Source: Chryseobacterium indologenes (GTDB taxonomy: Bacteria > Bacteroidota > Bacteroidia > Flavobacteriales > Weeksellaceae). From it: DNA of 64,000 nt. The stretch lies in assembly GCA_016025055.1 (NCBI GenBank), contig CP065590.1, positions 2,356,001-2,420,000 on the forward strand, given 5' to 3'. Numbering within the stretch: position 1 is the first letter of the stretch; each line of letters opens with the position of its first letter. The position numbers and the translations under genes are program-made. The notes below the pieces were generated by a model that did no database searches, had not been told where the DNA came from, and saw only the letters and a program-made list of their open reading frames with translations. Shown here one piece after another: positions 17,866-40,413 of this stretch.

Positions 17866-17928
17866 AATACTAGTTTTTTCAGTTTTTTACTATTCCTACT
17901 CTGTTTCACCGGCTTTTCGGAGTCCGCC
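17866..17928 (-). promoter_or_regulatory. Conserved leader element, copy A
   Basis: Read on the minus strand: GGCGGACTCCGAAAAGCC (17928-17911), eight bases, then AGAGTAGGAA, then an A-rich tract up to the ATG at 17865. The same blocks in the same order precede 37850 and 40360. The outer triplet GGC/GCC here is AGC/GCT in the other copies, so pairing is preserved. Function unknown: either a protein operator or a structured 5' leader. Confidence 0.75.
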
Positions 17929-18116
17929 AACTGGTTTGATTTACTGAGTCAAAGGAACAACGAATACAAAAACAGAACTAGAGTAGAAAATACCAAATTA
18001 TACACTCCGTATTTCTACGTAATATCCGATTTGAAAATCAAGACTAATTTGTCGTCCTTAAGTTTCCCGGAGAGCACTGTATTTAGTATTTTTGTAAGAA
18101 TCCAATAAAAAGTAAA

Positions 18117-18882
18117 ATGAACGAATTTGTAGCAACAGAAATTAAAAATAATATTGCCGAAATCACATTCGGAACGCCAAAAAGCAATTCTCTTCCGGGA
18201 GCCATTTTAGAAAAGCTGGCCCATACTATTTTAGAAGAGGGGGCAAAAGATGAGGTAAAAGCCATTTTGGTCAAAAGCGAAGGCGAAAAAAGCCTTTTGT
18301 GCAGGAGCAAGTTTTGATGAGCTTTTGGCTATCGAAGAACTAGAGGCTTCCACAAAATTTTTCGGCGGTTTTGCCAAAGTATTGAATGCTATGAGAAATT
18401 GCGGAAAGATTGTGGTGGTAAGAGTACAGGGAAAAACTACCGGTGGTGGAGTAGGTATTGCCTGTGGGGCAGATTATTGTTTTGCAACAAAAGATTCAGC
18501 TTTAGCCCTTACTGAAATTAATCTGGGAATCGGCCCTTTCGTAATCGGCCCTTATGTAGAAAGAAAGATTGGAAAGTCCCAGTTTTCTGCAATGGCCATC
18601 GATGCTGATTTCAGATCTGCAGACTGGGCAGAACAACATAATATCTACCATTCTGTATCTGATACCATTTCGGAAATGGATGAAAAGCTTGACAAATTTA
18701 TGCAAACCCTGGCCTCCAGAAGCAGTGAAGCCTTAGCCCTTATTAAAAAAGTTTCATGGGAGGGAACAGACCATTTCAATGAATTGATGCCGGCAAGAAT
18801 TCATATGAGTGCCAGCCTTATTCTGGAAGATTCTGCAAAGAAAAATATCGGAGCGATTAAAGAAAGATTAAGAGCCAAGTAA
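18117..18882 (+). pseudogene. Enoyl-CoA hydratase/isomerase (crotonase) family protein, frameshifted
   Basis: Two adjacent frames form one crotonase of about 255 residues. The first (18117-18317) has NNIAEITFGTPKSNSLPGAI. The second (from 18325) has IVVVRVQGKTTGGGVGIACG and LALTEINLGIGPFVIGPYVE, with the oxyanion-hole glycines. The A6 run at 18286-18291 carries one extra base. Without it the sequence reads GEKAFCAGASFDELLAIEEL, the expected first oxyanion motif. It would hydrate or isomerise acyl-CoA thioesters. The rest of the gene is well conserved, so a sequencing error is likely. Confidence 0.88.
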
Positions 18883-18911
18883 TATACAGAGTTCAGGATT
18901 TTAAAATATTC

Positions 18912-18939
18912 AGCCATTGATAAGTTCAATGGCTTTTTT
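18912..18939 (+). terminator. Terminator after the crotonase gene
   Basis: AGCCATTGA (18912-18920) pairs with TCAATGGCT (18926-18934) and is followed by a T run. Confidence 0.8.
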
Positions 18940-18972
18940 GTTGAGACCGGAAATTATTTTTTAAAAAAAGTT

Positions 18973-19012
18973 TTGTTCATTCAAATAAAATTTTAACTTT
19001 GTAATTCAAAGT
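18973..19012 (+). promoter_or_regulatory. Promoter with overlapping palindromic operator
   Basis: A flavobacterial promoter is visible: TTG at 18973-18975, 18 bases, TAACTTTG at 18994-19001. The near-perfect palindrome ACTTTGTAATTCAAAGT (18996-19012) overlaps its -7 box. The perfect version ACTTTGAAATTCAAAGT is at 20026-20042 before the next operon. The winged-helix regulator encoded between them is the obvious candidate repressor. Confidence 0.75.
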
Positions 19013-19019
19013 TCTTTTT

Positions 19020-19637
19020 ATGGATACCAAAAACTATCACGAAGACTTATCTCATATCCGTTCCATGATGGAGCGTTCTTCCAGATTTATTTCTTTAAGC
19101 GGCTTGTCTGGAGTTGTGGCCGGAGTTGTTGCTCTTCTCGGGGCGGGATATGCATATTATGCGATGGAAAGAGAAAAGGTAAGCTATGTTCATGGCCGTA
19201 AATTCTTGTATAATCCCGATCTTGTGCAGGAATTAATAGTAACGGGACTTACCGTTTTAATAGTAGCTGTTCTTAGCGGATATATTTTTACGGCCAATAA
19301 AAGCAAAAAGAAAGGATTGAAAATCTGGGATGCTACCACGAAGCGTCTTATTGTCACATTTGCTGTTCCGTTGGCGGCCGGAGGGATTTTTTGTTCAGCG
19401 CTTATTTTTCATCATTTAGTGGTCTGGATTGCTCCCGCAACATTGGTATTTTACGGATTAGCGTTGGTGGCTGCGGAGAGATATACGCTGCCGGATATAA
19501 AATATCTGGGATATTGTGAGATTATTTTAGGATTGCTGGCTGCCTTCGTATTAGGGTGGGGATTGGTTTTCTGGTCCTTGGGATTTGGAGTTTTGCATAT
19601 TGTTTATGGACTGATTATGCATAAAAAGTATAAATAA
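19020..19637 (+). CDS. Integral membrane protein of unknown function
   Basis: A 205-residue protein with six likely transmembrane segments, the first near 27-48 (LSGVVAGVVALLGAGYAYYA) and the last near 175-197. The cytoplasmic N-terminus begins MDTKNYHEDLSHIRSMMERS, a recurring opening in flavobacterial membrane proteins next to small winged-helix regulators. No catalytic motif is visible. It heads a two-gene operon with that regulator (74-base gap) under a promoter overlapped by a palindrome. Confidence 0.8.
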   Translation: MDTKNYHEDLSHIRSMMERSSRFISLSGLSGVVAGVVALLGAGYAYYAMEREKVSYVHGRKFLYNPDLVQELIVTGLTVLIVAVLSGYIFTANKSKKKGLKIWDATTKRLIVTFAVPLAAGGIFCSALIFHHLVVWIAPATLVFYGLALVAAERYTLPDIKYLGYCEIILGLLAAFVLGWGLVFWSLGFGVLHIVYGLIMHKKYK

Positions 19638-19711
19638 AAAGCTAAATTTGCAGCTCTTTAGTCGCTAGTTTCTATAGCCTGCTGTCTGAGATCTGCAACG
19701 ATTACCTTATT

Positions 19712-20001
19712 ATGATAAAAATAAATCAACTCAACAAAGAATTTGAAAGCCGTGTAAGACTGGGGATTATGTCCGTTCTTATGGTTAATGATTGGGTTGA
19801 CTTTTCCGAAATGAAAGCCCTTCTGGAAATTACAGACGGTAATCTGGCCAGCCACAGTAATGCATTAGAAAAAAACGGATATATTGAAGTAAAAAAGAAT
19901 TTGTGGGTAAGAAACCTAAAACCTCTTACAGGGTTACCCAAAGTGGAAGACAGGCCTTTACAGATCATTTGGATGCTCTTGAAAAATTATTGGGACGCTA
20001 A
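19712..20001 (+). pseudogene. Small winged-helix transcriptional regulator, frameshifted
   Basis: Intact residues 1-60 read RVRLGIMSVLMVNDWVDFSE and MKALLEITDGNLASHSNALE, the DNA-binding winged helix of a MarR/ArsR-like family of about 95 residues. One A is missing from the run at 19891-19896. With it the frame continues EFVGKKPKTSYRVTQSGRQA and FTDHLDALEKLLGR to a stop at 20001, the standard end of the family. Probably regulates its own operon and the Coq4 operon through the two matching palindromes. The lesion is likely a sequencing error. Confidence 0.87.
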
Positions 20002-20025
20002 ACTCAATATTTTTTTTGAAATAAT

Positions 20026-20042
20026 ACTTTGAAATTCAAAGT
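20026..20042 (+). promoter_or_regulatory. Perfect palindromic operator before the Coq4 operon
   Basis: ACTTTGAA-A-TTCAAAGT is a perfect 17-base palindrome, matching the element at 18996-19012 at 16 of 17 positions. It lies 60 bases before the Coq4-like start codon and overlaps an ATACTTTG segment that resembles a -7 box. Confidence 0.7.
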
Positions 20043-20102
20043 TCTTTGTTTTATAAAATAAAGGAATAATACTGAAAATTAATCTCTTAAAATATATACA
20101 CT

Positions 20103-20588
20103 ATGAAAAAAATACGTGTTCACTTTCTGCTTTTTGTGTACGACAAAACTCAAAAGATATACAGAAAATACTTTAAAAAGAAAAAAAGACAATGGCAGTT
20201 TAATGAAAAGCAGCTTCTTGAATTTCAGGAAGATTCTCTGGGAAGGAAATTGGGGGAATTTTACCATAAACACGGTTTCTCTATGATTCCTAAAATGGAA
20301 AACCACGATGTACATCACCTCATTACAGGCTGCAGTACCCATTTCGAAGATGAAATTGCCATGCAGTACCTCTTACTGGGAAATGGTAAACTGAATGCTC
20401 ATCTTTTGGCTGCTATTGTATTGGGAACGATCATTTTGCCTGAATATGCGAAAATTTATATCAAGGCTTTTCAGAAAGGCCAAAGTATGAGACCTTTCCA
20501 CCATTGGGATTTTGAAGAATTATTGTGGCAGAACTTTGAGCATGTGAAAAACTTCATCCATCAAAAAGATACCGTTGTACTTTATTAA
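20103..20588 (+). CDS. Coq4-family protein
   Basis: A 161-residue protein with the Coq4 hallmark HDVHH (in MENHDVHHLITGCSTHFEDE, about residues 66-85) and a following Glu. In eukaryotes Coq4 supports ubiquinone synthesis by binding zinc and quinone intermediates. Flavobacteria use menaquinone, so the role here is unknown. It heads a rightward operon with three membrane proteins and is probably under the palindrome at 20026. Confidence 0.82.
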   Translation: MKKIRVHFLLFVYDKTQKIYRKYFKKKKRQWQFNEKQLLEFQEDSLGRKLGEFYHKHGFSMIPKMENHDVHHLITGCSTHFEDEIAMQYLLLGNGKLNAHLLAAIVLGTIILPEYAKIYIKAFQKGQSMRPFHHWDFEELLWQNFEHVKNFIHQKDTVVLY

Positions 20589-20595
20589 TAAACCT

Positions 20596-20913
20596 ATGGG
20601 AACAATAAAATTCAGCTTGTTGGGGAAAAGAACTTTCCTTATTTCGTTTTGGCTGGGAACGCTCCTATTGGTCGCATTTTGGATGACAAATGCAGAATGG
20701 CTGGCCATTGTCGGGTTTTATTACCTTATCATCGTTGCTATTGCCAATTTCATGATTCTTTTACATGAGCTTTTAGAATATCTGAATGATGTCTCTGAAA
20801 AGAAAAGCTCAGGAAACTCAGTACTTCTGCTCCTTGTTAATATTCCGATTGCTTTCGGTTATTTCTATCTATTCCTGCATATCGTTACTTCTTCTTTCAA
20901 CTCATCATTTTAA
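20596..20913 (+). CDS. Small membrane protein
   Basis: From the ATG at 20596 the product has 105 residues and three hydrophobic segments (FLISFWLGTLLLVAFWM, LAIVGFYYLIIVAIANFMIL, VLLLLVNIPIAFGYFYLFLH). No known motif. Seven bases separate it from coq4 and ten from the next gene, so it belongs to the same operon. Confidence 0.75.
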   Translation: MGTIKFSLLGKRTFLISFWLGTLLLVAFWMTNAEWLAIVGFYYLIIVAIANFMILLHELLEYLNDVSEKKSSGNSVLLLLVNIPIAFGYFYLFLHIVTSSFNSSF

Positions 20914-20923
20914 ATCTACTCTT

Positions 20924-22294
20924 ATGAAAACACATCAATATATACTGATCACAGCCATCCTTTTTGTTATCCTGTTTTATGAGCAGGAACCGGGGCTCAA
21001 CCTCGGAATCCTTGCTATTGTTTATACGGTACTGACCTTATTCAGGACATCGGAAAAAAACAGAACCCGGGCATTTCTCATTCTTTTTGTAACCAGTATT
21101 TTGTCCGCTGTGGCCTTTGCCTGGTATGGTGATTTTCCTTCTTTCCTGGCAGTGGTGAGTTCACTTCTGCTTCTGGCTTACAGGTCAAAGAACAGGAAGA
21201 TGAAGATATTGTTTCTCCTTCCTGTTTTTATTGTAAACTGTTGTACCTCTTTTTGCCGCTTTTTCAGTTTTGATCAATGGATGCCTAAAAGAAATGTTTC
21301 CGGATTATGGCAGAAGACATTAGCTTTTATCCTGATTCCCTTGATTCTTGTATCTGTTTTCTTTGGAATTTATTCTGCCGGAAGTGACCATTTTGCAGCT
21401 CTCTTTACAGATTATGAACTGGATATCAATTTATGGCAGCTTTTCTGTCTTTCTGTTTTGGGATTTTTTATCGCTTTTAATTACTGGAACTATGCAGTAG
21501 AAAAATTGATTTACAAAAATCATCACTTCCTGGATAATGATTTTAAGAAAGATGCACTGATTCCGAAAGCCACCTATTCTTTCCTGGATCTTGACTCCGA
21601 AAGAATGAGTGGGGTTATTTCTTTCCTTTTGCTCAATATTCTTTTGGTCTTTTTTATCATCACTTATAATTATGAACAGTTCTACGAAACTTCAAAAACA
21701 CCGGTTCAGCTGTCAGAAGAAACACATGAGAGAGTCAACGCAGTGATTATGTCTATCGTTATGGCTATTCTCGTAATCATGTTTTATTTTAAATCCGGTT
21801 TTAACTTTGATCCTAAATCCGGATTGATGAAAGTTTTAGCCAAATTCTGGATTTTTCTGAATGCTGTTCTTGTTTTGTCAGCGGCAGTGAAAAATTATGA
21901 ATATGTGGTTCAGTATGCATTGACCTACAAAAGACTCGGTGTTTTTGCTTTTTTAATGTTAGCACTCGTGGGACTTGCTTTGACCTATATTAAGATTCAA
22001 AAGAGAAAAAGAAATGCTTTTCTGTTCAATACAATGACATGGTATCTGTATGGGACAATTCTGGTTTGCAGCTATGTGAACTGGGGTGGTTTTATCACTT
22101 CTCAGAATATGAAACGTAAAGATTTTGCCGTCAATTATCATTTTATCTCCATCAATTTTAGCGAAAAGGATCTGTTGAAATATGCTGATGAAAAACATGA
22201 TCAAAAGCTTAAAAAACAGATACTGGATAAGATTAGAAATGAAAGGTCAAAAACCTTTCTTTCAAAGATTATATATTATCAGGCCATTAAATAA
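20924..22294 (+). CDS. DUF4173/DUF4153 polytopic membrane protein
   Basis: I start it at the ATG at 20924, directly after the preceding gene; the open frame extends further left but would overlap that gene. About 456 residues, with roughly ten membrane segments, the mid-protein block RMSGVISFLLLNILLVFFII and the region NAFLFNTMTWYLYGTILVCS typical of DUF4173. The C-terminus is soluble and charged. Function unknown. It shares the operon with coq4-like and DUF1361 genes. Confidence 0.8.
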   Translation: MKTHQYILITAILFVILFYEQEPGLNLGILAIVYTVLTLFRTSEKNRTRAFLILFVTSILSAVAFAWYGDFPSFLAVVSSLLLLAYRSKNRKMKILFLLPVFIVNCCTSFCRFFSFDQWMPKRNVSGLWQKTLAFILIPLILVSVFFGIYSAGSDHFAALFTDYELDINLWQLFCLSVLGFFIAFNYWNYAVEKLIYKNHHFLDNDFKKDALIPKATYSFLDLDSERMSGVISFLLLNILLVFFIITYNYEQFYETSKTPVQLSEETHERVNAVIMSIVMAILVIMFYFKSGFNFDPKSGLMKVLAKFWIFLNAVLVLSAAVKNYEYVVQYALTYKRLGVFAFLMLALVGLALTYIKIQKRKRNAFLFNTMTWYLYGTILVCSYVNWGGFITSQNMKRKDFAVNYHFISINFSEKDLLKYADEKHDQKLKKQILDKIRNERSKTFLSKIIYYQAIK

Positions 22295-22300
22295 TATAAG

Positions 22301-22978
22301 ATGAATAAAATAATAAAATCGTCAAGGTTTACAATGAATATCCTGCTGGTATTCATGACCTTATTTTGTTTCAGTCTATCTATATTCAGGTATTATGTCA
22401 GTGAAACCAAAGTTTTTTTCTTCCTTAACTGGAATTTATTCCTCGCCTGGATTCCTTTTTTGTTGAGCTCATTCATTGGTGCTTTCAAAATCAAAAGTAA
22501 AACATCCCTGGTGTTGATCATTATCGTGTGGATTTTGTTTTTTCCCAATTCACCCTATATTCTTACCGATCTTTTTCATTTAAAAATGAGGGATTCAATA
22601 CCGGTTTGGTATGATCTTATTGTCATTCTTTCTTATGCATGGACCGGGTTGATATGCGGATTTATAAGTTTACATGATATTGAAAAGCTGCTTTCTGAAA
22701 ACGGTAAAAAGAGAATGGTTACCGGAATTGTAGTGCTTTTTCTTTTTATGAGCAGTTTTGGTGTCTATCTGGGAAGGTTTTTGAGATGGAACAGCTGGGA
22801 TGTTTTTAACGATCCTTCCGGATTACTCGGTGACATTATTATTCGGTTTATCGATCCGACAGAGTATTCCGGAACATGGGGGCTTACCTTTTTAATGGGA
22901 ATTATGCTCAATTGTATGTACTTCACATTTAAACTAATGGAAAGCAATGAAAAGACCGTAATCGAGGCAGAAAAGTGA
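22301..22978 (+). CDS. DUF1361 membrane protein
   Basis: A 225-residue integral membrane protein with about seven segments. It carries the DUF1361 phrases WILFFPNSPYILTDLFHL and FGVYLGRFLRWNSWDVFNDP. Function unknown. It is the last gene of the coq4-like operon, 6 bases after the DUF4173 gene. Confidence 0.88.
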   Translation: MNKIIKSSRFTMNILLVFMTLFCFSLSIFRYYVSETKVFFFLNWNLFLAWIPFLLSSFIGAFKIKSKTSLVLIIIVWILFFPNSPYILTDLFHLKMRDSIPVWYDLIVILSYAWTGLICGFISLHDIEKLLSENGKKRMVTGIVVLFLFMSSFGVYLGRFLRWNSWDVFNDPSGLLGDIIIRFIDPTEYSGTWGLTFLMGIMLNCMYFTFKLMESNEKTVIEAEK

Positions 22979-23062
22979 ATCTGTTGACTGCAGTTGGAAC
23001 AATTTTAGCATGTAAAAAGACTTAACTGAATGTTGAATTGGAACATCCATAAATTAATTATT

Positions 23063-23602
23063 ATGAAAAAAAGCCTATTGTTAATTCCTTTGATGATCGT
23101 TGCCTGTAAAAAAGAACCGGCTGTAACAGCAGTATCGGATAAAGATTCTACCATTAAAACAGAAATGCCGGATTCTGTCATGAAAAGTGATTCTGCTGCA
23201 TTGAGAAAAAAAGATTCCATTATTAACAATGCACCTGCCACTAAAGAAGTTTTGCGTAAAGGCGTCATGAGAAGCGAAAAAGAAGGCCAGATTGTAAGAA
23301 CGGCCGATGCTTCCCAACTTCCCTTTACACTGGGAGAAGCATTTACAAAAGACGGTCAGGAGCTGGTTTTAAAACTGATCAACTATGATCAACCCAACAT
23401 TAAGGCAAAGATCACCACCAAAGAAAAGGAATTTAATATCCGCTTCAATCAGATCAAACTTCCTAATGGAGATTATGACGGTCCTTTCGGAAGAGATATT
23501 ACCTATGAAACTCCGGGGAAAGGAGAGGTATGGCTGATTATAGGGAAAAGTAATATGGCATCAGGAAACACAAAAGGTAGTTTTACGGTAAGCGTGGAAT
23601 AA
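23063..23602 (+). CDS. Lipoprotein of unknown function
   Basis: Start chosen at the ATG 23063, which opens a lipoprotein signal: MKKSLLLIPLMIVACKKEP, with Cys near residue 15. A Lys/Asp/Ser-rich linker (about 25-80) leads to a C-terminal beta-rich domain (LPFTLGEAFTKDGQELVLKL to KGSFTVSVE). No family recognised. It probably sits in the periplasm or outer membrane. Confidence 0.78.
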   Translation: MKKSLLLIPLMIVACKKEPAVTAVSDKDSTIKTEMPDSVMKSDSAALRKKDSIINNAPATKEVLRKGVMRSEKEGQIVRTADASQLPFTLGEAFTKDGQELVLKLINYDQPNIKAKITTKEKEFNIRFNQIKLPNGDYDGPFGRDITYETPGKGEVWLIIGKSNMASGNTKGSFTVSVE

Positions 23603-23660
23603 GATAAACCAATTTGGTATAATTTCTGCAAACTAATCTTTGAAGTTTAAATTTTAAATT

Positions 23661-24173
23661 ATGAAAAATATAGTTCTAACAGCAATGGCCGCTTCAGCTG
23701 TACTTGTAAGTTGCGGAACCGTACAGTCGCTGGTTCAGAATACGTTTCCATACACCACAAATGTTTTAGTTTCTACAGGAGTGCCCGCAGATAAAGAAGT
23801 GTCTTCTACGGCAACTGCTACGAACGTTCAGACATGGGTAGGAGGAAATAATAATGCAAAAATCAAAGATGTGAGAATCTCAGAGGCAAAAATCTCTGTA
23901 GCTTCACCGTCTGGAGGAAATTTAAGCGCATTCAAGTCCGTTAAAATTTACGTTTCGTCTGCCGGAACAAATGAAAGACTGATTGCATCACGTTCCAATA
24001 TATCCACCAATTCATCCAGCTTAAACCTGGATCTTAATGACACCGGATATTTGGATGAGATTGTAAAAAGTGCGGGACTTACGGTAAGAACGGTGTATGA
24101 ATTGAAAAACCAGACCAGTTCAGATATGAACATCAAAGTGGCACTTAATTTCAACAGCGTCCCTGCACAATAA
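23661..24173 (+). CDS. Lipoprotein of unknown function
   Basis: A 170-residue protein with lipoprotein signal MKNIVLTAMAASAVLVSCGT (Cys at 18). The rest is Ser/Thr/Asn-rich and beta-predicted, ending in MNIKVALNFNSVPAQ, which fits an adhesin-like or solute-binding outer-membrane lipoprotein. I do not recognise the family. A terminator follows. Confidence 0.75.
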   Translation: MKNIVLTAMAASAVLVSCGTVQSLVQNTFPYTTNVLVSTGVPADKEVSSTATATNVQTWVGGNNNAKIKDVRISEAKISVASPSGGNLSAFKSVKIYVSSAGTNERLIASRSNISTNSSSLNLDLNDTGYLDEIVKSAGLTVRTVYELKNQTSSDMNIKVALNFNSVPAQ

Positions 24174-24196
24174 TTTTTATAAAGTTTATTATGAAG

Positions 24197-24228
24197 AAAA
24201 CGTCTTTCAGAGTATTGAAAGACGTTTT
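24197..24228. terminator. Bidirectional terminator between convergent genes
   Basis: AAAACGTCTTTC (24197-24208) pairs perfectly with GAAAGACGTTTT (24217-24228). It separates the lipoprotein gene from the leftward protease gene. Confidence 0.8.
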
Positions 24229-24251
24229 CGATTTATATGGTATCGACCGTA

Positions 24252-25907: not shown

Positions 25908-26062
25908 ATAAATTTTGTTAAATGGTTGTGGATCAGTTTATGTTTATGTCAAAAATAATAATAAAATTAAAACAAATCACGTTTTTGTGAAATTATTTTA
26001 ATTTGTATGTTTTTTTGGATACATATTAATTCCGTCGGAAAAAATGTTGCGGTAAAGGGCAA

Positions 26063-32230: not shown

Positions 32231-32260
32231 AATATTTTTTTTTTTTTTGGAAAAAAATAA

Positions 32261-32268: not shown

Positions 32269-32308
32269 CGGGTGAAGATTGTATTAACACACAAATATAA
32301 TTTATACA

Positions 32309-34294
32309 ATGAGAAAAAGTTTATTTGCTATAGGTCTTTTAGCCGTTAGCTATTCTGTTCAGGCGCAGAATGTTCTATGTCATGTAGACACTAACGCTAA
32401 TATGTATGTGAGCGAAGGCACCCTAGTGTATAGCGGTGGCGGTGTACAAACAAGAGGTAATGGCCTTTTGGATCTACACGGAAACATGATGGTTGTAGGA
32501 TCAACTACAGACGCCTTTAAAACAATTGATGCATCCGGTGCAGATAAAACTGACGGAGGAAACATCATTGTAAGGCTGAATGATCCCGCCAATTATGCAA
32601 CCTCTACTTATGGCCAGTTATATATTCAAGGTTTATCCCAAGCCGGAATTACTGGTGTTGTAAGTAAGGAATACAGAACTAACAAACAGGGTGACGGAAA
32701 CTACTTCCAACAAATTGCCCTTCCTTTCTTTGGTAAAACATTCAATTCATTATCTACTGAACTAGGCAAAACTTTTGGAACTACCAGAAGTGTAAACAAT
32801 GCCAATTCTGTAAATAATGATTTGATCTTAAAATGGAATAACACAAGTGCTGTGTCTGACCATTTTACCAACCTTGCCAATACGACATCTGACGGTTCCG
32901 GATACTATATGTTAGGGTCTAGAAATAACAACCTGAACTTAAGTGCTCCTGCAACGGGTAATGTATTTACTCTTACAGGAAAGCCGTATGCAGAATTTGC
33001 AGCTCCTGTTAACTTACAAAACGCAGGAAATGTAAATTTTGGACCTAACGGAACTTACAAAAACTCTTATCAGGAATATTACTATACCTATATCCAGGAT
33101 CAGTTTGACCTTCCTAATGGTTCTTGGACAGGAACTTACGGTAAAAATATTTACCAGTTCGGTAATCCATTCTTAACCAATTTAGATTTATCTAAAATCG
33201 GGTATATTGAGAACGGAACAATTACAGACGGGAATAACATTACCAACATTATGGGTATTGAATACACCTCAGGTAATGTAGTTACTCAAAATTCAGGTGG
33301 TTCTTCTGCAACTTATACCACAGGGGCCCAGATTCAGACGTTTGCTTTGAATGGTGTTCCGGTAGGAGATACAGGATTGATCATCAAGCCAATGCAGCCA
33401 TTTATTATCAAGCTTAGGGATAATACAGCTCAAACTTTAAACTTCAACACGCTTAGAAGATTCAAAGATGTTGTTAGAGCAAACGGAGTTGATTATAACG
33501 TTAATGCTGCAAAGATGAGCAATGGAGGAAGCAAGACAGACAGAGGAACTGTAAAGCAACTAGGGGTTATTGGTCTTGATGCTAATAAAAACGAAATTGC
33601 AAGAACTTACTATGTAGTTACTCCTACTTCAGCTACTGGTCACCAGACTTCTATTGCCAGTACTGTACAGGCTGCTGCGACTCCAATGAACCTAATCGGA
33701 ACTTTTGAAGAAGCGGTGAACGGAGGATATGATAATAACTATACTGGTCAGTATTGGTTATATATCAATGAAGCCAATGAAAGTGATTTCCAAGGTAAAA
33801 ATGTAATGCTTGTAAATTATGATCAGACTAAGATCAAGTATTACAAGTTTGAAATAAAAGAAAATGCTGAACCAATTCCTGCAGGAGCACACCAGCTTTC
33901 TGCCGGTATAGGATTCTATTTCAAAGCTGAAAACGGAACTGTACAGCAGGCTAAACAAGGAGATATTGTTCCTGTAACTCATGAGGAGTATAATTTATAC
34001 TACGGAGAGCCTAATAACGGTACGTTAGCAATTGATAAAAAAGAAGCAAGACCTTCAAGAACAGCGGTGGTTTACAATCCGGCAATTACAAACTATATTG
34101 TCAGATTTGATCCAAACTGGAAAAAAGCAGATATTGAAGTTTATGATATGAGCGGTAAACTGGTAATCTCCAAAAAGGCGGTTGATGCATCCAGAGATTT
34201 TGTAATTGAGCTCGATAGCTCTGTTAAAAACTCTTACGTTGTAAAAATTGTCTCTGATAAAGGAGAAACTGTTAACACTAAAATCTTAAAATAA
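32309..34294 (+). CDS. T9SS type A sorting domain-containing surface protein
   Basis: A 661-residue secreted protein. Signal peptide MRKSLFAIGLLAVSYSVQAQ. A long Asn/Gly/Thr-rich beta region follows with no catalytic motif. The final 75 residues carry a T9SS sorting domain (ADIEVYDMSGKLVISKKAVD, end VNTKILK). It is probably anchored on the cell surface. The Gly-rich small gene follows after 5 bases, so the two are one operon. Large size and abundant Asn suggest a structural or adhesive role; this is inference. Confidence 0.87.
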   Translation: MRKSLFAIGLLAVSYSVQAQNVLCHVDTNANMYVSEGTLVYSGGGVQTRGNGLLDLHGNMMVVGSTTDAFKTIDASGADKTDGGNIIVRLNDPANYATSTYGQLYIQGLSQAGITGVVSKEYRTNKQGDGNYFQQIALPFFGKTFNSLSTELGKTFGTTRSVNNANSVNNDLILKWNNTSAVSDHFTNLANTTSDGSGYYMLGSRNNNLNLSAPATGNVFTLTGKPYAEFAAPVNLQNAGNVNFGPNGTYKNSYQEYYYTYIQDQFDLPNGSWTGTYGKNIYQFGNPFLTNLDLSKIGYIENGTITDGNNITNIMGIEYTSGNVVTQNSGGSSATYTTGAQIQTFALNGVPVGDTGLIIKPMQPFIIKLRDNTAQTLNFNTLRRFKDVVRANGVDYNVNAAKMSNGGSKTDRGTVKQLGVIGLDANKNEIARTYYVVTPTSATGHQTSIASTVQAAATPMNLIGTFEEAVNGGYDNNYTGQYWLYINEANESDFQGKNVMLVNYDQTKIKYYKFEIKENAEPIPAGAHQLSAGIGFYFKAENGTVQQAKQGDIVPVTHEEYNLYYGEPNNGTLAIDKKEARPSRTAVVYNPAITNYIVRFDPNWKKADIEVYDMSGKLVISKKAVDASRDFVIELDSSVKNSYVVKIVSDKGETVNTKILK

Positions 34295-34299
34295 ACAAT

Positions 34300-34521
34300 A
34301 TGAAAACTATTAATAAACTAGTATCCGCAATTTTTCTTCTTGCTGTAGTATTCGTACAGGCTGCACCACCGGTACCGGGAGGAGGCGGAGGTACAGGAGG
34401 TCACGGTACAGGAGGGGGAGACCCAGCTGCACCAATCGATATGTATGTATATGTACTTTCTCTCGTAGCTATTGCATTCATTGTATTCTTTACCAAGAAG
34501 TATAAAAGCGTAAAAGCATAA
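34300..34521 (+). CDS. Tiny Gly-rich single-pass membrane protein
   Basis: A 73-residue protein. An N-terminal signal (LVSAIFLLAVVFVQA) leads to a linker PPVPGGGGGTGGHGTGGGDP. One transmembrane helix (YVYVLSLVAIAFIVFFT) and a basic tail KKYKSVKA follow. The layout (export signal, Gly linker, helix, Lys/Arg tail) resembles sortase-like or exosortase-like tails, but no such motif is certain. It follows a T9SS cargo gene with the same 5' region and presumably the same transcript. Confidence 0.75.
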   Translation: MKTINKLVSAIFLLAVVFVQAAPPVPGGGGGTGGHGTGGGDPAAPIDMYVYVLSLVAIAFIVFFTKKYKSVKA

Positions 34522-34540
34522 AATTTTATTAAAATAATAT

Positions 34541-34572
34541 TAAACTCTCTGATTAGTCAGGGAGTTTTTTTA
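34541..34572 (+). terminator. Terminator after the Gly-rich gene
   Basis: AACTC-T-CTGA pairs with TCAG-G-GAGTT around a short loop and is followed by seven T. Confidence 0.75.
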
Positions 34573-34582
34573 TTTTTACTTT

Positions 34583-35875
34583 ATGAAAAAGATTTATACA
34601 CTATCTGCAGTTTTAGCTGCATTTGCTTTGCAGGCTCAATTTTCAGTTACTATTCAGGCTCCTGCAGACTTTAAAGATCAGGACGCTATTCTATATACAT
34701 TAAACGGTTCTAAAGATGTTGTTGTTACCAAAGAACAAAGTAAAAATAACACCTGGACATTCAAGTATCCCAATAATTATATGGGGATGATGAAAGTGTA
34801 TTTTCCGGGTTCCAACAATACCGTGAACTTTATTTCTGAAAATAAAAATGTCAGCTTGAAGCTGGATGTTCAGAATAATAAAGTAAAAGATATTATTTAC
34901 CTTGATGAAGCCAATGAGCTGATGAGTAAACAACAGGAAGGTTCTCAAAAGAAAGAGCTTATTCTTCCTGCTCTGAGCCAGATCAAAGAATATTACAAAG
35001 ATAATACAGACTTCGGAAAAGCATTGAAAACCGAGATTGAAAGACTTTCGGGTAACTCTGGTGCCATTGATGCGGCAAAACATCCGTTTATCTCATATTA
35101 TAATACCAACTACAGTAAGTTCCTTTCTAATCCGTCAGATCCTGCTAAAAAACCCAGCCAGGACGAGATAATCAATTTCCTGGATAAGTCTAATGATATG
35201 CTGGAAACATCATCCTTATTGAGACCGGTATTGGTCGCATATCTTAACTCAGGCGGTAATACAAACGTCACCGGTTCTGTAGATAAGCTTCTTGATCGTC
35301 TGAAGGTGGAAACTCCAAGAGGCCAGACTGTTTTATCGGAACTGATCGACATTTTTGACGTCTATCAGATGGATGAGTTTAAAAGTAAATATCTGGGGCT
35401 TGCTAAAAACCTCAAGTGTACCATTACCGACAGACTGGCTTCTACCATCAAATCTAATGCTAATGTAGAAATGGGGGCAGCTTTTCCAAACTATAAGTTC
35501 CAGTCTCCTGTAAATACGACTGCAAAATCACTTTATGATGTAAAGGCAGATAAGAAGGTGGTTGTTTTCTGGTCATCTACCTGTTCGCACTGTGAAACCG
35601 AGCTTCCCAAGCTTTTGGAAAAATATAACGAGTTAAAGGGAAAAAATATTCAGGTTGTAGCGCTTTCTTTAGATGTTGATAAAAATTCATACACTAAGAA
35701 AATAGCTGCTTTCCCATGGGTGAATGATTCAGAATTGAGAGGATGGAACAGTAGCTATACTGAAACTTACAATGTACACGCTACTCCGACCTATTTTATT
35801 TTAGATGCTAACAATAAGATAATCAATAAACCAGAGCATGTTGGCGATGTTTTAGAATATTTTAAGCTAAAATAA
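34583..35875 (+). CDS. Exported TlpA-like thioredoxin-fold protein
   Basis: A 430-residue protein with signal MKKIYTLSAVLAAFALQAQ. An N-terminal beta and helical region of about 290 residues (DUF4369-like in layout) is followed by a C-terminal thioredoxin domain. Its redox motif CSHC lies in VVFWSSTCSHCETELPKLLE, and cis-Pro in YNVHATPTYFILDANN. It probably reduces disulfides in the periplasm. It starts 61 bases after the Gly-rich gene, beyond a terminator. Confidence 0.88.
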   Translation: MKKIYTLSAVLAAFALQAQFSVTIQAPADFKDQDAILYTLNGSKDVVVTKEQSKNNTWTFKYPNNYMGMMKVYFPGSNNTVNFISENKNVSLKLDVQNNKVKDIIYLDEANELMSKQQEGSQKKELILPALSQIKEYYKDNTDFGKALKTEIERLSGNSGAIDAAKHPFISYYNTNYSKFLSNPSDPAKKPSQDEIINFLDKSNDMLETSSLLRPVLVAYLNSGGNTNVTGSVDKLLDRLKVETPRGQTVLSELIDIFDVYQMDEFKSKYLGLAKNLKCTITDRLASTIKSNANVEMGAAFPNYKFQSPVNTTAKSLYDVKADKKVVVFWSSTCSHCETELPKLLEKYNELKGKNIQVVALSLDVDKNSYTKKIAAFPWVNDSELRGWNSSYTETYNVHATPTYFILDANNKIINKPEHVGDVLEYFKLK

Positions 35876-35877
35876 TT

Positions 35878-35907
35878 TTGGTAGATAAAATATATTTTCT
35901 ATATTTG
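35878..35907 (+). promoter_or_regulatory. Consensus flavobacterial promoter of the tRNA gene
   Basis: TTG at 35878-35880, 19 bases, TATATTTG at 35900-35907: an exact match to the TTG-N19-TAnnTTTG pattern. Transcription would start a few bases before the tRNA at 35920. The -33 box overlaps the end of the upstream thioredoxin gene. Confidence 0.85.
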
Positions 35908-35919
35908 CACCACCGAAAA

Positions 35920-35993
35920 GGCGAGGTAGCTCAGTCGGTTAGAGCGCAGGATTCATAACCCTGAGGTCACGGGTTCAATTCCCGTCTTCGCTA
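35920..35993 (+). tRNA. tRNA-Met (anticodon CAT)
   Basis: A 74-base cloverleaf. The acceptor GGCGAGG (35920-35926) pairs with CTTCGCT (35986-35992, G-U pairs at the first and sixth positions). Anticodon CAT is at 35954-35956 and the T arm is ACGGG-TTCAATT-CCCGT. Discriminator A is at 35993; the CCA end is not fully encoded. A CAT anticodon could also belong to tRNA-Ile2 (lysidine-modified) or initiator tRNA. The non-mismatched first pair argues against initiator; elongator Met is the best guess. Confidence 0.92.
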
Positions 35994-35995
35994 CA

Positions 35996-36035
35996 AAAAA
36001 CCGCAGTCATTGTTTATAATGATTGCGGTTTTTAT
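35996..36035 (+). terminator. Terminator of the tRNA gene
   Basis: AAAAACCGCAGTCATT pairs with AATGATTGCGGTTTTT (one G-T pair) around GTTTAT, and T follows. Confidence 0.88.
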
Positions 36036-36390
36036 TTTACAATAGGTCGTCTCCCTTTTATCATTTTACTGAGATTTCAGGGATCAGGTACAGAAGTCGG
36101 GGGCTGCACAAAAAGTTTGGTTAATCTGCAAATAAAAAGTTTCGTCTTTTTACACTGTGAGTTGCAATCTGAAGTTTTACAAAACACAAAACAAATGTGA
36201 TTCCTGTAAGAGGGGAAGAAAGCCATCAAGTAGCTGATGAATCTTTGTGGATATACATGCGCTCACAAAGAATAAGTTCAGGAGAAATTTTATGGGAAAA
36301 TAATGGAGGATAAGAATATATAAGTACAAAAAGGAAATGCCATTTTCACAGCTTGTGAAAATGGCATTTTTTGTTTTATCCGATGCATAA
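36034..36390. other. 357-base gap with a strong hairpin at 36335-36372
   Basis: No gene is convincing here. Near the right end AAATGCCATTTTCACA pairs perfectly with TGTGAAAATGGCATTT over 16 bases with a three-base loop (36335-36369) and T follows. It closes the peptide-secretion operon that ends at 36391 and could also stop rightward transcription. Confidence 0.7.
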
Positions 36391-37689
36391 TCAGGATTGG
36401 TATCCGAGGAGCTTTCTGATTTGATAGAAAAACCTCTCAATAAGCCTTAAATCCTGCGTCACGATCTCTGCACTTCCCCGAAGTTCTTTATCGAAAATAA
36501 GGGTCTTATTATAGCTTGTTTTTAATCCTTTTGGTAATACTACATCTACATAGTAATTTCCTTTATCATCAGGAATCAGCGATATATTCTGTACCTTACC
36601 CTCAATAATCCCATATTCCTGAAAACGGTAGTTATCCAATTTAATCAATACCTTCTCTCCCGGAATGATTTTTCCGGAGTTAACTGTAGGTACAGACATT
36701 CTGCCAACCAGCTTCTCTTTATTTTTAGGTAAGATAGATAAGATCGGTTCTCCCACTTTTACGAATTGATTTTCGCCGAAAAACTGCTGAAAGCTGGCTA
36801 CCCCATCGGTTGATGAAATAACAAGGTAATTCTGCTCCCATTGCTTCAGAGATTTTCGAAGCTGCTCAAATAGCTGTAGTGTTTGTGAAGAGTAGGTGAT
36901 TTTATCTTTTTCAGTATTAATGGCTGTTCCGCTTTTTGTTTTATTAAGATTGGAAATACCTTCTTCTGTTTGTGATATGGAAATATTAATATTTTCAAGG
37001 TTTTGCTGGGCCTGAAGATATTTGATTTTTTCATTTTCAAGTTCCATAGAAGAGATGACCCCCTGATTAAAGAGTTCCTGTGACCTCTGGAAACTTTTCT
37101 TGGTTAGGTCATACTTGGCCAACTCCAGATTTTTCTGTTGTTTTAAAGTTGTAATTCTTGTTCTGTATTCAGAAATACTGTTGTTGGCGGCCAGGTTTTC
37201 CGGAGCATAAGGCTGTAAACGGGTAAACAGGGCTTCATCCTGAAACGCCTTTGCAAAGCTGTTGTAATCTCCCTGTAATTCACCAAGTTTAAACCTTGAT
37301 GCCTGGGCTAAAGGGAAGGAAGCTATCTGGTTGGGAGCAATTGAATCAACCAGTTTTTTAAGCTCTAATACATCTTTATAGTTGGCAGCAGATTGCATAA
37401 CCATCAAAACTTCATTTTTTTTGACCTCCTGGTGATCTTTAATGAATATCTTTTCAATTTTGGAACTGATTCTTGCCTCCATTTTTTCCGGAGGATTCTG
37501 AGAGGTTACAATAATGGGAGCCGGTACAAACTCAGGGTATTTTATTATATAACTCATAACAAGGATGAGCAGGAGAATAACAAATATAACCGTATTGCCC
37601 CAGCGTATCATCCAATGCGGAGGCTGGGTTAAGATATCTTGTACGCTTTCTGAGCGGAGTTCAATATTATCTAAAACGTCTTCTTTCAT
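36391..37689 (-). CDS. HlyD-family membrane fusion (adaptor) protein of the peptide exporter
   Basis: A 432-residue protein with one N-terminal transmembrane helix (VIFVILLLILVMSYIIKY, about 32-50). A lipoyl-like half follows (MEARISSKIEKIFIKDHQEV), then a long coiled coil (about 180-270) and a C-terminal beta barrel (ENQFVKVGEPILSILPKNKE, YYVDVVLPKGLKTSYNK). It would link the inner-membrane ABC exporter to the outer membrane. Its ATG is 2 bases after the stop of the small peptide gene at 37692, so expression is coupled to it. Confidence 0.92.
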   Translation of the reverse strand: MKEDVLDNIELRSESVQDILTQPPHWMIRWGNTVIFVILLLILVMSYIIKYPEFVPAPIIVTSQNPPEKMEARISSKIEKIFIKDHQEVKKNEVLMVMQSAANYKDVLELKKLVDSIAPNQIASFPLAQASRFKLGELQGDYNSFAKAFQDEALFTRLQPYAPENLAANNSISEYRTRITTLKQQKNLELAKYDLTKKSFQRSQELFNQGVISSMELENEKIKYLQAQQNLENINISISQTEEGISNLNKTKSGTAINTEKDKITYSSQTLQLFEQLRKSLKQWEQNYLVISSTDGVASFQQFFGENQFVKVGEPILSILPKNKEKLVGRMSVPTVNSGKIIPGEKVLIKLDNYRFQEYGIIEGKVQNISLIPDDKGNYYVDVVLPKGLKTSYNKTLIFDKELRGSAEIVTQDLRLIERFFYQIRKLLGYQS

Positions 37690-37691
37690 TT

Positions 37692-37850
37692 TTATAAGAT
37701 AAAATTCTCCGATGTTTCGGAGGAAATATAATTAAATAAATGGGGAGTTTCTGCTGTACCATGACACCAGGGCCCACAACAATTTCTTTGTGGACACACC
37801 GCCCAGCTATTAACGGAAATCAGGTCTAAAAGTTTTCTCAGATTTTTCAT
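37692..37850 (-). CDS. Small Cys-rich peptide gene between exporter and adaptor
   Basis: A 52-residue product, MKNLRKLLDLISVNSWAVCP then QRNCCGPWCHGTAETPHLFN and a 12-residue tail. The first six residues match the leader of the peptide at 40196 (MKNL-K/R), and there are four Cys (19, 24, 25, 29). There is no Gly-Gly cleavage site, so it may be processed differently, be a decayed copy, or carry a base error. Conserved leader element B precedes it. Its position, 2 bases before hlyD, argues for a real translated gene. Confidence 0.6.
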   Translation of the reverse strand: MKNLRKLLDLISVNSWAVCPQRNCCGPWCHGTAETPHLFNYISSETSENFIL

Positions 37851-37899
37851 ATTAATAGCTTTTTAGTTTTCCTACTCTGTAAGCTTTTCGGATTCCGCT
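37851..37899 (-). promoter_or_regulatory. Conserved leader element, copy B
   Basis: Minus strand: AGCGGAATCCGAAAAGCT (37899-37882), then AGAGTAGGAA ending at 37869, then 18 bases to the ATG at 37850. It lies 20 bases after the ABC exporter stop codon, so it could drive separate control of the peptide and adaptor genes. Confidence 0.75.
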
Positions 37900-37918
37900 G
37901 TCTTCATATTCGTGGATA

Positions 37919-40111
37919 TTAATTTCCTAATTCAAGCTGATTTCTTACCAACCTGTAATATTCTCCCCTTAGGTCTACCAATTCTGCGTGGCTACCTTCT
38001 TCTACGACTTTCCCATTATCTAATACTATGATTTTATCAGCATGTTTTACGGTTGAAAGTCTGTGGGCAATAACCACTGCCGTTTTACCCCTAAAGAACT
38101 GTTCAAGGTTTTCCATAATAACCTTTTCATTATTGGCATCCAATGCGGAAGTTGCTTCATCAAACAGAATATATTCGGGAGATTTGTATACGGCCCTGGC
38201 GATAAACAAACGCTGTTTCTGGCCTCCACTTACGCCAACTCCTTCATTCCCGATCTTTGTATTATAGCTTAACGGAAGCCCTTCTATAAATTCTTTAATA
38301 TTGGCAATTTCTACGGCGCGCCTTAGTTTTTTCTTATCGATATGATCTTCACCGACAGCAATATTATTGGCAATCGTGTCATTAAAGACGTAGCCTTCCT
38401 GCATTACCACTCCGCAATGATCCCTCCAGTATCTTGGGGAAATATTTTTCAGACTGGTATTTCCGATTCTGATTTCACCCTGATCCGGATCATAGAATTT
38501 CATCAACAGCTTTAGCAGTGTGGTTTTTCCGCTTCCACTGGCTCCTACAATTGCTGTTGTTTTTTGATAGGGTATGCTAAGGCTTAAGTTTTCAAAAACC
38601 GGAACATCAGAACCTATGTATCTGAAAGACATATTGGAGATCTCAATATCTCTTTGGGGAATTTCTGTAGCGTATTGTTCGTTTTTATCCTCTTCATCTT
38701 CCTTATCGTGAATTTCACCTAATCTTTCAAGGGAAATTTTGGCATCCTGAGTTTGTTTTATAAAGTCGATAAGCTGCAGGAGAGGGCTGTTCAGCTGTCC
38801 GATAATATACTGTACCGAAAGCATCATCCCCAGGGTAAGATTTCCGCTAAGGACCAATTTGGCAGAAAGGAAGCTTACAAGAATATCTTTCATCTGATTG
38901 ATGAAGTTTCCTCCTACGGATTGCCATTGCTCTAACGATAGAGATTTTATTCTGATTTTAAATAATTTCACCTGAAGAAACTCCCAATCCCATCTCTTTT
39001 GTTTTTCGGCATTATGCATTTTGATCTCCTGCATACCGTTGATCAGTTCAATCACTTTACTTTGTTCCTGCGAAACCTGGGAGAACCTTTTATAATCAAG
39101 TTCTTTTCTTTTTTTCAGGAAAAAGCTAATCCATCCGATATACAATACAGCTCCGACAAGATATACAATGAATAGCCTGTAATCATAGAATAGTAAAACA
39201 ATACTGAAAATGATAAGGTTTACGAGAGAGAATAGTGTGTTCAGTGATGAACTGGTAAGGAGTTGCTCTATTCGGTGGTGGTCATTGATCCTCTGCATGA
39301 TATCTCCTGTCATCCTTGTATCAAAAAAGCTTATAGGAAGTTTCATCAGCTTGATAAAGAAATCTGATATGATGGAAATATTTATCCTTGCAGATAAGTG
39401 GAGGAGGATCCAGCTTCGGATCACTTCTATTCCCATTCTGCCAAGAAACAGCATGATCTGCGCAAGCAAAACCATGTAGATAAAGTTGATATCCTGATTT
39501 TGTATTCCGACGTCTACTATACTCTGGGTAAGAAACGGAAAGATCAGTGAGAGTAAACTTCCTCCCAAAAGCCCGACTGCCAGCTGTATAACAAGTGTCT
39601 TATATTTAAGCAGGTATTTGGATAGAAATGTGAAGCTGGCTTTGCTTTGATCTGTATCAAACTCAGTCTGGAAAAATGCAGGGGTAGTTTCCAGAATCAG
39701 AACAATTCCTTCTTCTGTATTTTCATTGGCATTTTCGCCGATCCAGAATTGGATAAACTCATCGCGGGTGTAGGTGATCAGCCCGTAGCTGGGATCTGAT
39801 ACATATACTTTGTTATTTTTGTCAATCTTATAAACAACAACAAAATGATTTTTATTCCAGTGTGCGATACATGGAAAGGGCACTTCTTCTACAAGGGTAT
39901 TAAAGTCGATCTGGACTCCCATAGAACGGAATCCCAGGTTTTCGGCAGCATCACTCAGCCCAAGAAGGCTGCTTCCCTCACGAGTGGTCTCAGAAAGGTT
40001 ACGGATTTGTTGCAAGGATATGCTTCTGCCATAATATTTACTTACGATTCTAAGGCAGGTAGGCCCACAGTCTTTAGTGTCTGGTTGCTTATAAAAAGGA
40101 AATTTCTTCAA
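37919..40111 (-). CDS. Peptidase-containing ABC transporter (bacteriocin/peptide exporter)
   Basis: A 730-residue PCAT. The C39 peptidase domain (1-130) has catalytic Cys in DTKDCGPTCLRIVSKYYG, His in CIAHWNKNHFVVVYK and Asp in VSDPSYGLI. The membrane domain (about 165-450) has six helices. The nucleotide-binding domain has GASGSGKT, signature GVSGGQKQR, Walker B YILFDEATSALD and H-loop AHRLSTV. It would cut substrates after a Gly-Gly leader and export the core. The start codon is TTG at 40111; no in-frame ATG precedes MKKFPFYKQ. It is separated from the peptide gene by a terminator. Confidence 0.95.
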   Translation of the reverse strand: MKKFPFYKQPDTKDCGPTCLRIVSKYYGRSISLQQIRNLSETTREGSSLLGLSDAAENLGFRSMGVQIDFNTLVEEVPFPCIAHWNKNHFVVVYKIDKNNKVYVSDPSYGLITYTRDEFIQFWIGENANENTEEGIVLILETTPAFFQTEFDTDQSKASFTFLSKYLLKYKTLVIQLAVGLLGGSLLSLIFPFLTQSIVDVGIQNQDINFIYMVLLAQIMLFLGRMGIEVIRSWILLHLSARINISIISDFFIKLMKLPISFFDTRMTGDIMQRINDHHRIEQLLTSSSLNTLFSLVNLIIFSIVLLFYDYRLFIVYLVGAVLYIGWISFFLKKRKELDYKRFSQVSQEQSKVIELINGMQEIKMHNAEKQKRWDWEFLQVKLFKIRIKSLSLEQWQSVGGNFINQMKDILVSFLSAKLVLSGNLTLGMMLSVQYIIGQLNSPLLQLIDFIKQTQDAKISLERLGEIHDKEDEEDKNEQYATEIPQRDIEISNMSFRYIGSDVPVFENLSLSIPYQKTTAIVGASGSGKTTLLKLLMKFYDPDQGEIRIGNTSLKNISPRYWRDHCGVVMQEGYVFNDTIANNIAVGEDHIDKKKLRRAVEIANIKEFIEGLPLSYNTKIGNEGVGVSGGQKQRLFIARAVYKSPEYILFDEATSALDANNEKVIMENLEQFFRGKTAVVIAHRLSTVKHADKIIVLDNGKVVEEGSHAELVDLRGEYYRLVRNQLELGN

Positions 40112-40127
40112 AACTAATATTCATTAT

Positions 40128-40158
40128 AAAATGTCGTCAGAAAGATGACGACATTTTT
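40128..40158 (-). terminator. Terminator/attenuator between peptide precursor and exporter
   Basis: AAAATGTCGTC (40128-40138) pairs perfectly with GACGACATTTT (40147-40157). On the minus strand four T follow. It lies after the precursor gene, so it can make the precursor more abundant than the exporter. Confidence 0.8.
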
Positions 40159-40195
40159 ACTTTTATTCAATGTTACAATTCAGTTCAACGGTGGA

Positions 40196-40360
40196 TTAGT
40201 AATAACACCATTTATTACAAGCGTTTATTGCTCCTTCTTTTGGAGGATTTATTTTAGATTCACAGTAGCTTGCTTCACTTTGGATTCGGGCACACTCCTC
40301 GGTAATTCCTCCCTGCAGAGTTCTTAAGTTTTCTCTCGAAAGTTGTTTAAGGTTTTTCAT
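40196..40360 (-). CDS. Double-glycine leader peptide precursor (bacteriocin-like)
   Basis: A 54-residue product. Leader MKNLKQLSRENLRTLQGG ends in Gly-Gly at 17-18. The 36-residue core ITEECARIQSEASYCESKIN + PPKEGAINACNKWCYY has four Cys (core positions 5, 15, 30, 34), fit for two disulfides. It sits directly upstream of a C39-peptidase exporter and 100 bases downstream of a disulfide-forming enzyme gene, so cleavage after Gly-Gly, oxidation and export are expected. Activity is unknown; bacteriocin and signal peptide are both possible. The leader element C and terminator frame it as its own unit. Confidence 0.88.
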   Translation of the reverse strand: MKNLKQLSRENLRTLQGGITEECARIQSEASYCESKINPPKEGAINACNKWCYY

Positions 40361-40413
40361 GATCAATAGTTTTTCGTTTTTTCCTACTCTTTTATAGCTT
40401 TTCGGATGTCGCT
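40361..40413 (-). promoter_or_regulatory. Conserved leader element, copy C
   Basis: Minus strand: AGCGACATCCGAAAAGCT (40413-40396), then AGAGTAGGAA ending at 40381, then 20 bases to the ATG at 40360. Upstream, TATCTTAG resembles a -7 box with one mismatch. Confidence 0.75.

Follow-up and report, generated by a model that had tools for sequence, protein, structure and literature searches.

The closest described relatives of the element studied here are two RNA families of the Rfam database, DUF805b (RF02914, clan CL00115) and DUF805 (RF03081). DUF805b is listed there as cis-regulatory, has no assigned function and, we assume, goes back to Weinberg 2017. We found no paper in the literature on either RNA; the papers on DUF805 are, by their titles, not related to RNA. 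Here we analysed a stretch of 64,000 nucleotides (nt) from Chryseobacterium indologenes (CP065590.1, positions 2,356,001-2,420,000), called the window, whose positions serve as coordinates throughout. The original prediction, made from the letters of this DNA, had proposed one element common to three minus-strand leaders and had held that no described motif fits it. The common element was found at the proposed places, and it is already catalogued: all three leaders are copies of DUF805b.

Three leaders in the window are copies of DUF805b

All three copies pass the RF02914 cut-off of 35.6 bits. Each consists of a stem (P1), a second helix that makes the fold a pseudoknot, and two loops:

17893..17930, minus strand: DUF805b element 1, RF02914 37.8 bits
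17929-17926 with 17913-17910, minus strand: P1 of element 1, outer pair U-G
TCC 17921-17919 with GGA 17896-17894, minus strand: pseudoknot of element 1
GAAAA 17918-17914 and AGAGTA 17902-17897, minus strand: loops of element 1
37869..37901, minus strand: DUF805b element 2, RF02914 43.8 bits
37899-37897 with 37884-37882, minus strand: P1 of element 2
TCC 37892-37890 with GGA 37872-37870, minus strand: pseudoknot of element 2
GAAAA 37889-37885 and AGAGTA 37878-37873, minus strand: loops of element 2
40381..40415, minus strand: DUF805b element 3, RF02914 45.2 bits
40413-40411 with 40398-40396, minus strand: P1 of element 3
TCC 40406-40404 with GGA 40384-40382, minus strand: pseudoknot of element 3
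GAAAA 40403-40399 and AGAGTA 40390-40385, minus strand: loops of element 3

Since the RF02914 E-values of the window copies are 1.2e-9, 3.7e-9 and 4.1e-7, the joint match of the leaders lies far above chance. The Rfam match covers 38, 33 and 35 nt in elements 1, 2 and 3, and the remainder of each leader is an A-rich linker. The spacing from GGA to ATG is 28, 19 and 21 nt, respectively, with the gene always on the same strand. Both TCCGAAAAGC and AGAGTAGGAA occur exactly three times in the window, every time in the three leaders. When up to one mismatch is allowed, TCCGAAAAGC gives 12 matches versus 4.8 expected (none of 100 shuffles reached 12); for AGAGTAGGAA the total of 8 is unremarkable, as 9 of 100 shuffles got there.

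The predicted order and places of the shared blocks were confirmed, and the layout had to be amended by four bases (GGAC, GGAA, GACA) that separate TCC from the 5′ triplet. As predicted, the outer triplets co-vary, GGC/GCC at 17.9 kb versus AGC/GCT at 37.9 and 40.4 kb, and the base pairing suspected on this ground was borne out by the mutual information described below. Of the four P1 pairs in the RF02914 model, the inner three form in every window copy; at the outer one, element 1 has U-G, and elements 2 and 3 have a non-standard pair.

RF02914 has the same stem, the same constant blocks and the same location 5′ of genes as the window copies. Its model line draws P1 alone, and the pseudoknot was added by the present analysis. 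Because covariance models cannot carry pseudoknots, the model line does not tell whether the Rfam curators noticed it. Likewise, the ATG distance rule, the viral copies and the bacteriocin-like genes reported here were derived in this work and may already be in the source description of DUF805b. RF03081 (cut-off 51.1 bits) has the core GAAAA ... GAGUAGGA in common with the window copies, but differs by an additional upstream hairpin and by the consensus ACC/GGA at the pseudoknot place. No RF03081 match was reported for the window copies, and another locus of the same genome (L014) scored 49.4 bits, below the cut-off.

The element is a pseudoknot with co-varying helices

With a length of about 33-38 nt, the element is an RNA pseudoknot of the H type, built from P1 (3-4 base pairs, bp), a crossing 3-bp helix of the form NCC/GGN, and the loops GAAAA and AGAGUA. 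In the second helix, the three bases before GAAAA are complementary to the three after AGAGUA and co-vary with them, and the helix crosses P1. Covariation was measured on sites collected with a blind pattern, CCGAAAA(4-14)AGAGTAGG, which leaves P1 and pseudoknot pair 1 free and fixes pseudoknot pairs 2 and 3. This pattern yielded at least 113 stretches in genomes (one genome per species) and at least 120 in viral contigs, with 246 sites, and the genome and viral results below refer to the matches listed. After removal of five duplicates, 241 unique sites, unselected for pairing, entered the mutual-information analysis. The three P1 pairs (0.965, 0.850 and 0.636) and pseudoknot pair 1 (0.699) were the top four of 325 column pairs, with the next at 0.215. 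The same four pairs led when genome sites (120; next 0.280) and viral sites (121; next 0.305) were analysed separately. Among the 201 listed sites with a P1 of at least 3 bp, 166 had a Watson-Crick pair at pseudoknot pair 1, 11 had G-U there and 24 were unpaired. All four Watson-Crick types are seen at this pair.

An alignment of the 120 listed genome sites (A3) had 87.9% of its structure cells paired versus 64.7% after shuffling. Its covariation score was 0.498 versus 0.129, a value that none of 500 shuffles reached and that compares with at most 0.096 for slid versions; these shuffles leave relatedness in, and pseudoknot pairs 2 and 3 are fixed by the pattern. Relatedness as the cause of the covariation is nevertheless disfavoured, both by the slid control and by the fact that two separate collections agree.

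A set from the genus and family was collected with a regular expression that fixes the middle C-G pair, allows C/T and A/G at the third pair and requires a P1 of at least 2 bp; its script passed over copy L014, and repeats of the same site were merged. All three pseudoknot pairs form in 73 of these 76 sites. The combinations are TCC/GGA (35), GCC/GGC (18), CCC/GGG (10) and GCT/AGC, TCT/AGA and ACC/GGT (2 each), the remainder being 4 wobble forms and 3 with a first-pair mismatch. Pair 3 is C-G, T-A (4) or T-G (2), and never C-A. A Shine-Dalgarno-like role of GGA was rejected, because the triplet varies (GGC, GGG, GGT, AGC, AGA) together with its partner.

Copies lie at a narrow distance before start codons

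We considered a site validated when it has P1 and a paired first pseudoknot position; three of the 246 sites had incomplete sequence and were left out of the distance set. An open reading frame (ORF) of at least 30 amino acids (aa) starts with ATG within 80 nt in 164 of the 174 validated listed sites, at a median distance of 22. The element ends 16-28 nt before the ATG, on the same strand as the gene, in 141 of the 174. This distance is also found in 12 of the 24 listed sites with P1 and an unpaired pseudoknot pair 1, and in 6 of the 45 listed sites without P1. In the genus/family set, 72 of 73 ORFs lie at 17-28 nt, and 3 of the 76 sites have no ORF. A scatter over random positions, named in the original prediction as the outcome that would speak against it, is therefore not what the search returned; together with the RF02914 match and the covariation, these distances support its proposal of a structured RNA element that recurs at gene starts. 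At one copy of the same genome (L009, C1:133289-133323), the DUF6520-like gene behind the element appears frameshifted near its start, so that the first open ATG is 56 nt away and not about 20.

The linkers are A-rich with 2-3% G. The frequency of A at -3 is 0.65 versus 0.44 in other ORFs of the same loci for genomes and 0.80 versus 0.55 for viral contigs, and at -12 it is 0.73 versus 0.49 and 0.79 versus 0.57, a comparison blurred by the first-ATG calls of the other ORFs. PMC7366714 gives 23 nt as the commonest length of the 5′ untranslated region (UTR) in B. thetaiotaomicron, which would place the pseudoknot where the usual leader starts. Linkers paired with their own element no better than swapped linkers did (as low in 83, 47 and 100 of 100 for the genus/family, genome and viral sets), and shuffled linkers paired better than the real ones in 98, 98 and 100 of 100. 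Nested folding of the 37.9-kb leader (37851-37901), alone among the three, joins the 3′ strand of P1 to the linker, which may be chance; its linker-element duplex energy is -6.4 kcal/mol, and those of the other two leaders are -4.6 and -3.6. Counted on mechanical ORFs, a copy overlaps an upstream ORF end or lies within 20 nt of it in 37 of 78 viral, 6 of 77 listed genome and 11 of 71 genus/family sites. Neighbouring genes can carry one copy each, as at L074, L122, L147, L191 and L283.

DUF805b occurs in much of the Bacteroidota and in viruses

The genome to which the window belongs has 13 RF02914 matches at E 0.001, 10 of them above the cut-off; as 150 of 3730 first-look candidates were scored, weak copies may have been missed. 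Matches occur in 97 of the 98 genomes searched in the genus (this one included, a sample of a larger group), with a maximum of 21 per genome. Within the family, 76 of 120 genomes match (the genus included), 56 of them above the cut-off, and 23 of 33 genera are represented. None of 14 control genomes matched.

Among the 113 listed genome loci, 76 of the 80 with printed titles are Bacteroidota by name, presumably covering Flavobacteriales, Sphingobacteriales, Chitinophagales, Cytophagales and Bacteroidales. Of the other four, an Ignavibacteriaceae bin has P1 with A/A at pseudoknot pair 1, and a Ruminococcus bin, possibly misbinned, has a validated site; loci in Pseudomonas and Patescibacteria, with 1 and 0 bp of P1, are chance matches. 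In a phylum scan the bare pattern was present in 87 of 296 genomes; it was rejected as a presence count in distant genomes because the reversed control pattern matches as well. When chosen listed loci were checked against Rfam, 16 of 18 genome loci (18 of the 113; 15 DUF805b and 1 DUF805) and 19 of 20 viral loci (20 of the 120) scored above the cut-off. The cultured Flavobacterium phage vB_FspS_lillamy9-1 (NC_048835.1) carries one copy (52.1 bits), which starts 4 nt past the gp40 stop and lies between gp40 and the ParB-like gp41; the other two of the three viral query proteins gave no match in this search of cultured phages. As a side result, one viral contig was found to contain a permuted transfer-messenger RNA (tmRNA) gene (L231:5512-5670).

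The element precedes unrelated genes

The genes behind the three window elements are those predicted, a protein of the Pfam family Collar and two short peptides. They and their neighbours are:

17314..17865, minus strand: gene of a tail-collar-domain protein (183 aa), PF07484 1.3e-27, behind element 1
15777-17033: tyrosine recombinase gene, just behind the collar gene
37692..37850, minus strand: gene of a cysteine-containing 52-aa peptide (peptide 1), behind element 2
40196..40360, minus strand: gene of a 54-aa peptide (peptide 2), NF047798 32.5 bits (cut-off 23.5), behind element 3
37919..40111, minus strand: peptidase-containing (C39) ABC exporter gene between the peptide genes, PF03412, PF00664, PF00005
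36391..37689, minus strand: HlyD-family secretion protein gene directly after peptide 1, PF13437
40460..41977, minus strand: gene of a VKOR and thioredoxin-domain protein upstream of peptide 2, PF07884, PF13462

Because a tyrosine recombinase gene adjoins it, the collar gene is possibly part of a mobile region. NF047798, the family matched by the 54-aa peptide, is a bacteriocin-like leader of the Chryseobacterium type; the 52-aa peptide had no match in Pfam or NCBIfam at E 0.001. Along the minus strand, the VKOR/thioredoxin gene is followed by element 3, peptide 2, C39 ABC exporter, element 2, peptide 1 and HlyD. By gene content this is a predicted bacteriocin-type export cluster with one element before each peptide, and the RF02914 search of the window reported none before the exporter genes. 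With an element per peptide and the P1 of element 2 starting 19 nt past the stop codon of the ABC exporter, the layout fits gene-by-gene control at translation.

Downstream proteins were compared with families at E 0.001, where families overlap and one protein can match several. The scan covered 99 of 101 genome, 80 of 85 viral and 71 of 73 genus/family ORFs; very long, short or doubtful ORFs were omitted from the first two sets, and identical ones from the third. The 71 genus/family proteins gave NF047798 (33), CCPGW (24), DUF6520 (14), Collar (2), DUF805 (2) and caspase (1). The 99 listed genome proteins fall into 49 Pfam families, the largest with 4 members, and 7 match NF047798. Among the 80 listed viral proteins, 19 belong to one ParB-like PHROG and 11 to a methyltransferase PHROG, with 7 Pfam families in all. 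No common pathway was visible among the downstream genes of the three sets. The idea that the collar gene and the peptides form one regulon did not hold, given the 13 matches before unlike genes in this genome and the many families elsewhere. As these families are unrelated, sharing a copy says little about shared function.

Some single loci deserve mention. Pfam Toxin_12 was matched by 7 of the 71 genus/family proteins (L003 at 21.5 bits versus a cut-off of 21), which fits small peptides rich in cysteine. Two loci of the same genus (L047, L061) have a mismatched pseudoknot, ACC/GGA, before a seemingly decayed collar gene, with no ATG ORF of at least 25 aa within 120 nt. Six genomes (L020, L027, L029, L030, L032, L046) share an arrangement of two oppositely oriented elements, of which one precedes a CCPGW-type peptide and the other, with a CCC/GGG pseudoknot, a conserved 197-aa protein.

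Promoter-like boxes upstream of the element

One promoter-like box was found in the window:

40422..40436, minus strand: promoter-like box TTCACTATCTTAGGA (TAnnTTAG), about 10 nt upstream of the P1 of element 3

Element 1 has only a variant box, seen by eye, and no such box was seen upstream of element 2, which lies closely behind the exporter gene. Upstream of 70 genus/family sites, TAnnTTTG occurs 2, 2, 1 and 7 times in the bins 0-9, 10-19, 20-29 and 30-39 nt, with 0.2 expected per bin. The signal is weaker at the 78 listed viral sites (2, 2, 1 and 5 versus 0.67 expected) and unclear at the 75 listed genome sites (1, 1, 0 and 1 versus 0.6 expected). The enrichment in the genus/family copies and the box before element 3 make it likely that the window elements are transcribed.

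In 14 of 76 genus/family copies, a second, TTCACTAnnTTAGGA-like signal precedes P1 by about 10 nt; all 14 are among the 45 copies before leader-type peptides (by a loose pattern), and none is among the 31 others. These loci are the window site at 40422-40436 and L016-L019, L023-L025, L033, L035, L037, L043, L045 and L062. The own genome has 1 exact site and 21 one-mismatch sites, versus 11 for a reversed control. This signal may be a special promoter, with TAnnTTAG in place of TAnnTTTG, and as such a better candidate for a peptide regulon.

Discussion

On balance, and with modest confidence, we think that the DUF805b pseudoknot acts in cis, on translation initiation of the single gene behind it. 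This step is the best inference from the position of the element, from the copies next to upstream genes and from the fact that no expression platform was seen. Bacteroidota mRNAs have no Shine-Dalgarno sites. The pseudoknot ends some 20 nt short of the AUG, where the stretch of mRNA covered by an initiating 30S subunit has its upstream edge, and would probably dock there on the ribosome or on an initiation-associated factor; enhancement seems a better guess than repression. In the window, the two peptide genes would then be translated at a rate other than that of the adjoining exporter genes. More broadly, though this is tentative and may well prove wrong, DUF805b and DUF805 could be a portable, phylum-wide initiation element of Bacteroidota and their phages, which docks on the 30S subunit at the side where the mRNA exits and fills the role of the Shine-Dalgarno helix for selected genes.

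Several results weigh against this picture. The first pseudoknot position is unpaired in 24 of the 201 listed sites with a P1 of at least 3 bp, and 10 of the 120 listed genome sites have A/A there, like the DUF805 consensus; as half of those 24 keep the usual distance to the ATG, this pair is not a strict requirement. On alignment A3, two of five measures lie within the shuffle range (both-sided changes 461/500, further pair types 89/500). Nested folding z-scores of the three window leaders are 0.88, -1.26 and -0.31, by a method that does not cover pseudoknots, and in these nested folds the linker base-pairs with parts of the element; the weak predicted stability suggests that something stabilises the fold. 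The upstream-ORF counts depend on mechanical ORFs. Finally, the genes are mostly accessory. From a general enhancer one might expect copies before genes for ribosomal proteins or elongation factors, and none of these is among the families shown (for genomes, 25 of the 49 Pfam families and 25 of the 50 NCBIfam families).

Constant loops in a weak structure would also suit the aptamer of a small riboswitch, in which the pseudoknot senses a widespread signal, e.g. a nucleotide second messenger, for many accessory genes. Up to 21 matches per genome recall the regulons of c-di-GMP (cyclic di-GMP) riboswitches, and the 37.9-kb linker can pair with its element at the energy given above. We nevertheless regard a riboswitch as unlikely: the linker pairing test against swapped and shuffled linkers revealed no general expression platform (terminators were not scanned for), and the downstream genes come from widely differing families, phage ParB-like genes among them. 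This diversity and the outcome of the linker test specifically disfavour a switch for a single metabolite. The constancy of GAAAA and AGAGUA beside freely varying stems is typical of protein sites, and global repression or activation would suit accessory and phage genes; the element could then be bound by an RNA-binding regulator, repressor or activator, of a true post-transcriptional regulon. This seems quite unlikely, since sites that cover much of the phylum and viral contigs would need a protein of equally wide spread, and we know of no candidate, having made no search for one.

That the element is a DNA operator or promoter part and not an RNA is very improbable. P1 doubles as a DNA inverted repeat, and part of the copies have promoter-like boxes close by, but these boxes, where found, lie upstream of the element. 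Moreover, crossing helices with freely co-varying bases misfit a sequence-specific operator, and the narrow ATG distance and the many viral copies at upstream ORF ends also speak against this reading. A recent duplication, or a likeness of the three leaders by chance, for which nothing speaks beyond the shared blocks, has practically no weight left and is refuted by the RF02914 E-values, the 13 genome-wide matches and the covariation.

The pseudoknot provides a small testable handle on the open question of how start sites are chosen and tuned in Bacteroidota, where Shine-Dalgarno pairing is lacking. DUF805b is also a possible part for expression tools in Bacteroidota. The collar-peptide regulon idea is of lesser weight, because the element is not specific to those genes.

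Among known systems, the preQ1-I riboswitch is an H-type pseudoknot of about 33 nt in a 5′ leader. DUF805b resembles it in size, in the H-type pseudoknot and in its place in a leader; the sequence differs, and DUF805b has no Shine-Dalgarno sequestration. The start region invites a second comparison. For Flavobacterium johnsoniae, PMC6847099 associates good translation with A at -3, -6, -12 and -13 and with low structure from -20 to +20. The DUF805b leaders match this Kozak-like start region of Bacteroidota in the A positions and the low structure, and add to it a pseudoknot just upstream (PMC6847099).

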